From positions 1-64,000 of the forward strand of contig JAJTIC010000052.1 in NCBI GenBank assembly GCA_021300175.1: DNA of 64,000 nt, in the 5' to 3' direction. Shown piece by piece: positions 44,626 through 45,966 of this stretch. How positions within the stretch are numbered: the first letter of the stretch is position 1; each line of letters starts with the position of its first letter. The notes beneath the pieces are model-generated. The model did not search any database and was not told the DNA's origin. It was given only the letters and a program-made list of their open reading frames with translations. The DNA comes from Pseudomonadota bacterium. Its GTDB lineage: Bacteria; Bdellovibrionota; Bdellovibrionia; Bdellovibrionales; Bdellovibrionaceae. The translations under genes and the position numbers were made by a program.

Positions 44626-45966
44626 GTGCAAACATCTGAAAAGAATGGCGTTTATATCTCTACTTACGGCTGTCAGATGAACGAGAACGACAGCGAGCGG
44701 ATGTACAGCTTGCTCGAAATGGCAAATTTCACTCCGGTCACATCGGCGGATCAAGCTGATTTAATCATCATCAACTCTTGTTCAATCCGCGAGAAGCCAG
44801 TTCACAAAGTCTACTCCGAAGTCGGGACTTATCGAAAACTCAAAGAGCAAAAGCCCCATTTAAAAATTGGAGTGGGGGGCTGCGTGGGCCAACAAGAAAA
44901 AGACAACCTCATGAAGAGTGCGCCCATGATTGATTTTGTTTTCGGCACTGACACGATCGATCAGCTGCCAGAGCTTGTGTTCAGGGCGATCGAAAGCAAA
45001 GAGCGGCAAGTGAACGCCAAATTCGAACACCGAGCGCCTTATCATGTCGAGACGTTGGTGAGAAATCCGGGTGTTTCCACCTTTGTGAATATCACAAAGG
45101 GCTGCGATAACTTTTGCACTTTCTGGGTGATGCCTTACACTCGTGGCCGCGAAAAATCTCGCCCCATGGTTCATGTCTTGGAAGATGCAAAAAAATTAGT
45201 CAAACGAGGAGTGAAAGAAATCACTCTGTTGGGTCAAAACGTGAACTCTTACAAATCAGACTGCGGAGCCGACTTTGCAGATCTCATCGAAAAAGTCGCT
45301 CAAGAGTCGGGGGTTCAGCGTTTGCGCTATACAACATCTCATCCGAAGGATTTTAACCAAAAGCTCGTGGATGTGATGTACCGAAATCAACCGGTGGTTT
45401 GTGAGTACATCCATTTGCCATTCCAGGCGGGGAATTCTCAGATCCTCGAGCGGATGAACCGAGGTTATACACGGGAGCAGTATTTAGAAAGAATTTCGAT
45501 GATCAAAAAATCGATCCCGAACGTTGTACTGTCAACAGATATCATTGTAGGCTTTCCTGGTGAAACAGAAGCTGAATTCGAGGACACCATTTCTTTGGTT
45601 CAAGAAGTGGGTTTTGAAACTATTTTTGCTTTTATGTATTCGCCAAGACCATTCACCAAAGCCGCTAAATTTGAGGATCAGGTTCCCGAGCCCGTCAAGT
45701 CAGAGCGCTTACAAAGATTATTTGCAGCCCATGATGAAATGGCGATGAAATTAGTGAAGCGTTATGAAGGTCAGATTCTCGAAGTTTTGATTGAAAAATA
45801 CGATGAGAAACGAAAGACCGTCTCAGGCAGATCCACTCAGAACAAACTTCTGCATTTGGCTGGGGACGCCTCGATGATTGGAAAGACACTACCAGTGAGA
45901 GTTCTTCAAGCATTTCCGAACACGCTGCGCGGGGAGATCTTATCAACTCAGGATTTGCACGCATGA
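44626..45966 (+). CDS. miaB: tRNA-2-methylthio-N6-dimethylallyladenosine synthase MiaB (cluster Cys replaced)
   Basis: MiaB adds the methylthio group at A37 using two [4Fe-4S] clusters. The 446-residue protein has the N-terminal cluster cysteines (YGCQMNEND, INSCSIRE, GGCVGQQ), the radical-SAM region, and a TRAM end. The SAM-cluster motif should be CxxxCxxC; here it reads GCDNFCTFWVMPYTRG, so the third cysteine (residue 167) is Trp. Bases at 45124-45126 are TGG. Both flanks stay in frame, so it is a substitution, not a frameshift. The enzyme may be inactive or the base may be wrong. GTG start with AAGGA seven bases upstream. Confidence 0.9.
   Translation: MQTSEKNGVYISTYGCQMNENDSERMYSLLEMANFTPVTSADQADLIIINSCSIREKPVHKVYSEVGTYRKLKEQKPHLKIGVGGCVGQQEKDNLMKSAPMIDFVFGTDTIDQLPELVFRAIESKERQVNAKFEHRAPYHVETLVRNPGVSTFVNITKGCDNFCTFWVMPYTRGREKSRPMVHVLEDAKKLVKRGVKEITLLGQNVNSYKSDCGADFADLIEKVAQESGVQRLRYTTSHPKDFNQKLVDVMYRNQPVVCEYIHLPFQAGNSQILERMNRGYTREQYLERISMIKKSIPNVVLSTDIIVGFPGETEAEFEDTISLVQEVGFETIFAFMYSPRPFTKAAKFEDQVPEPVKSERLQRLFAAHDEMAMKLVKRYEGQILEVLIEKYDEKRKTVSGRSTQNKLLHLAGDASMIGKTLPVRVLQAFPNTLRGEILSTQDLHA

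Follow-up and report, generated by a model that had tools for sequence, protein, structure and literature searches.

A Trp codon at the third radical-SAM cysteine of MiaB, unique to one draft genome, most likely reflects a sequence error or very recent inactivation

The miaB gene and its radical-SAM motif

The window, a stretch of 64,000 nucleotides from a draft Bdellovibrionaceae genome (GCA_021300175.1, contig JAJTIC010000052.1), carries on its forward strand a miaB gene (44626..45966) for a tRNA i6A37 methylthiotransferase of 446 amino acids. The open reading frame starts with GTG and has no internal stops. Its product scores 505.7 bits against the MiaB equivalog model TIGR01574 (curated cut-off 355.3) and has the Pfam domains UPF0004 (residues 9-107), Radical_SAM (154-324) and TRAM (378-439) in the order of MiaB proteins. 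The best solved relatives, the MiaB structures 7mjz and 7mjv, align over residues 6-438 and have Cys at column 167. A sequence-only reading of this DNA had described the three cysteines of the N-terminal (auxiliary) cluster as intact, and we found all of them on the forward strand: C16 (44671..44673), C52 (44779..44781) and C86 (44881..44883), each invariant in 62 family sequences.

The radical-SAM cluster motif on the same strand, CDNFCTFW (45103..45126), reads C160-x3-C164-x2-W167, so that the third position of CX3CX2C is Trp. C160 and C164 are encoded by TGC (45103-45105 and 45115-45117) and residue 167 by TGG (45124..45126), which bears out the motif, positions and codons of the earlier reading. 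That reading had also called the rest of the protein intact and in frame. The frame is indeed open, but an adjoining unique change, V169M (ATG, 45130..45132, forward strand), had been overlooked. It lies 4 bases from the first, and the motif in context is KGC160DNFC164TFW167VM169PYTRGRE. The assembled protein is MiaB by descent, and by its motif it is non-canonical or erroneous.

The CX3CX2C cysteines of MiaB hold the SAM-cleaving cluster, and the enzyme is described as unable to cleave SAM without it (PMC5372739). The literature that we searched states in general terms that both MiaB clusters matter, and it yielded no variant in which Trp replaces the third cluster cysteine. If the Trp is real, MiaB would lose this cluster or hold it in an unstable form, and the tRNA would stop at i6A37.

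Distribution of Trp167 and Met169

We compared the gene with MiaB from 122 relatives, 62 from the same family and a further 60 from the wider order and class. Column 167 is Cys in all of them (TGT in 92, TGC in 30), and column 169 is Val in all of them, Met being found in the window genome alone. At 127 columns where all other members of the family agree, the window gene departs only in W167 and M169 (bases 45126 and 45130); if two departures were placed among these columns at random, the chance of their lying no more than 2 residues apart is about 1.3%. Several relatives (G036, G005, G008 and others) have a stop inside the aligned stretch, which is likely just the ordinary terminus of a gene that is somewhat shorter than the query.

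We also scanned genomes with a DNA pattern for the Trp form, GC[DN]xxCx[FY]W with a Pro after two further residues. With Cys allowed at the third codon, the pattern recognises 122/122 MiaB genes of the class and is therefore sensitive for class MiaB; it misses some spellings of the sibling families, such as the RimO-like L002. Among 144 genomes of the class, the miaB gene in the window is the only match to the Trp pattern, leaving 0/143 in the others. Across some 85,000 species genomes of bacteria and archaea, a collection that may omit the window's own genome, there is a single match. It is a RimO gene (TIGR01125, 535 bits) in a Tepidibacillus metagenome-assembled genome (JAENYW010000105.1, L067, 3376-4734), on a contig whose title gives a coverage of cov_4.487. 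The scan of viral contigs gave no match. As judged from these comparisons, a Trp variant shared by the whole clade is refuted, since Cys167 is present in 122/122 relatives. The sequence-only reading had named relatives that all carry Trp as the case that would count against it, and the relatives do not. Its option of a genuinely unusual cluster is removed at the level of the lineage for the same reason, while sequence error and recent inactivation both remain.

The two changes might still form a working variant, in which C160, C164 and another ligand hold the cluster with M169 as a coupled change, and in which the protein stays active or serves in a role that needs no cluster, for instance tRNA binding. 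The paired and local nature of the change fits this idea, as does the strong conservation of the N-terminal cluster site, the TRAM domain and the remaining protein. However, no relative in the class shares the change, and the near miss, Met169 beside an intact Cys167, is found in 0/369 genomes of the phylum. Compared with MiaB of the family, no cysteine has been newly gained around W167, and those at columns 213 and 259 are also found in many relatives. We regard such a variant as improbable. More improbable still is its specific form, in which the two remaining motif cysteines support a functional radical-SAM cluster and Trp167 and Met169 stand in for the third ligand and the neighbouring residue.

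State of the gene, the pathway and the assembly

The tip of the window genome makes up 6.8% of the MiaB tree, compared to 7.7-8.2% in the trees of four neighbouring genes (guaB, guaA, dnaE and the carbonic-anhydrase-like gene next door). Apart from the two changes, MiaB has thus evolved no faster than its neighbours, and it is therefore not an old pseudogene. Of the miaB codons that encode the same residue as in the nearest relative, 188/335 differ synonymously; dS is saturated, and dN/dS is therefore without value here. The pathway appears to be in place as well: miaA is present over the full model, and A36-A37 are kept in tRNAPhe, tRNALeu(TAA), tRNALeu(CAA), tRNATrp, tRNACys and tRNASer(GGA). 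An old pseudogene or an abandoned pathway would account for the missing catalytic ligand, but it is contradicted by the full-length miaA, the six tRNAs, the frame free of stops and frameshifts, the normal branch length and the many synonymous changes, and we give it hardly any credence. As MiaB is not evolving without constraint, the change is either very recent or absent from the cell.

We found no second miaB copy in the assembly, which rejects the idea that another MiaB covers the loss. As a check for gene conversion from another copy, we looked for the 14-mer TTCTGGGTGATGCC, which is present only once in the genome. The two other long matches of the MiaB search are siblings with CX3CX2C intact, probably of the RimO and MtaB kind by their motifs. 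The motif is retained in RimO and MtaB as well as in most of the other radical-SAM proteins of this genome, and a genome-wide loss of Fe–S ligands is rejected. One full-length radical-SAM match (L076) is without CX3CX2C; it looks like an MnmL/YtqA-type protein with a spacing of its own.

The assembly comprises 2.45 Mb in 150 contigs, with a completeness of 93.5%. Outside the window, the sole tRNATyr gene found (C32:38140-38225) lies in the usual Thr-Tyr-Gly-Thr-tuf cluster, and its anticodon arm is CTGCACAC, compared to CTGTAAAT in 19/19 relatives. The loop reads TGCACAC instead of the TGTAAAT of the same 19/19 relatives, giving the anticodon GCA for GTA, a C37 and a mismatched stem. ARAGORN labels the gene as tRNACys, and a separate, normal tRNACys exists. 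To our knowledge, no viable cell lacks tRNATyr. The anomaly is therefore probably a base-level error in the consensus, or else a defunct copy, the functional one being absent from the assembly. It points to locally clustered wrong bases in this assembly, and it resembles the miaB case in that a few bases are off within one very conserved element. Two partial copies of tRNAVal(TAC) with altered 5' ends are also present (C83:1496-1551 and C90:1768-1834), which might be leftovers of mobile-element integration.

Poor base quality overall is rejected as the whole story. We counted 6 singletons at about 960 conserved columns of rpoB and 2 in EF-Tu; guaA, guaB and dnaE are normal, and the numbers of unique changes in rpoB, EF-Tu and the miaB neighbourhood are comparable to those in relatives. 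Errors in this assembly are therefore rare.

Interpretation and comparison with known systems

The most likely reading, to which we give a probability of about 0.6, is that the TGG and ATG codons are a local error in the consensus of the draft genome. Error is favoured because the bases cluster and because the tRNATyr anticodon is broken in the same assembly, leaving it with a Cys anticodon and no tRNATyr. We infer that the two base clusters share a cause. The uniqueness of both changes against 122/122 relatives, the rarity of the Trp form in the genome scans and of Met169 beside Cys, and the normal constraint on the remaining gene are all in line with a consensus error, as are the 150 contigs and incomplete state of the assembly. 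On the other hand, the clean state of the other conserved genes makes such errors rare, and two types of substitution would be required (T or C to G; G to A). Moreover, the odd tRNATyr gene could be a degenerate duplicate, the genuine one lying in the unassembled part. With a consensus error, the real miaB would carry an ordinary CX3CX2C motif, and its product would bind the radical-SAM [4Fe–4S] cluster and methylthiolate i6A37 as usual.

The next candidate, distinctly less probable than an error, is that both changes are real and recent, and that miaB is a loss-of-function allele in this strain or population. The catalytic cluster would then lack its full set of three cysteine ligands, SAM would remain uncleaved, and tRNAs would stop at i6A37 rather than ms2i6A37, with too little time for the remaining gene to decay. 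MiaB is not known to be essential in bacteria, and the open frame and conserved remainder are what a fresh mutation predicts; no other MiaB copy is there to cover the loss. However, two unique changes 4 bases apart, with none elsewhere, would be an odd start for random decay, and the same assembly contains a second base cluster that can hardly be genuine.

Consensus error or very recent inactivation, rather than a new kind of enzyme, thus most likely explains the change. A genuine Trp in an active enzyme would be an exception to the family rule by which three cysteines hold the radical-SAM cluster. For now, the finding serves mainly as a warning that in a single draft genome a very conserved motif can falsely seem to have lost an active-site residue, and the two base clusters in this assembly, in miaB and in tRNATyr, should not be taken at face value.

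Compared to known MiaB proteins (TIGR01574; 7mjv-7mjz), the assembled protein is alike in its full-length match, its three domains, its three N-terminal cysteines, the first two radical-SAM cysteines, the PYTRGRE segment and the remaining core. It differs in having Trp for the third radical-SAM cysteine and Met for the Val two residues later. The RimO of the Tepidibacillus metagenome-assembled genome (EGCDNSCTFW) has the same third cysteine replaced with Trp, likewise one base from a Cys codon. However, it is another methylthiotransferase, from a different organism, without the companion Met and on a contig titled with about 4.5x coverage.
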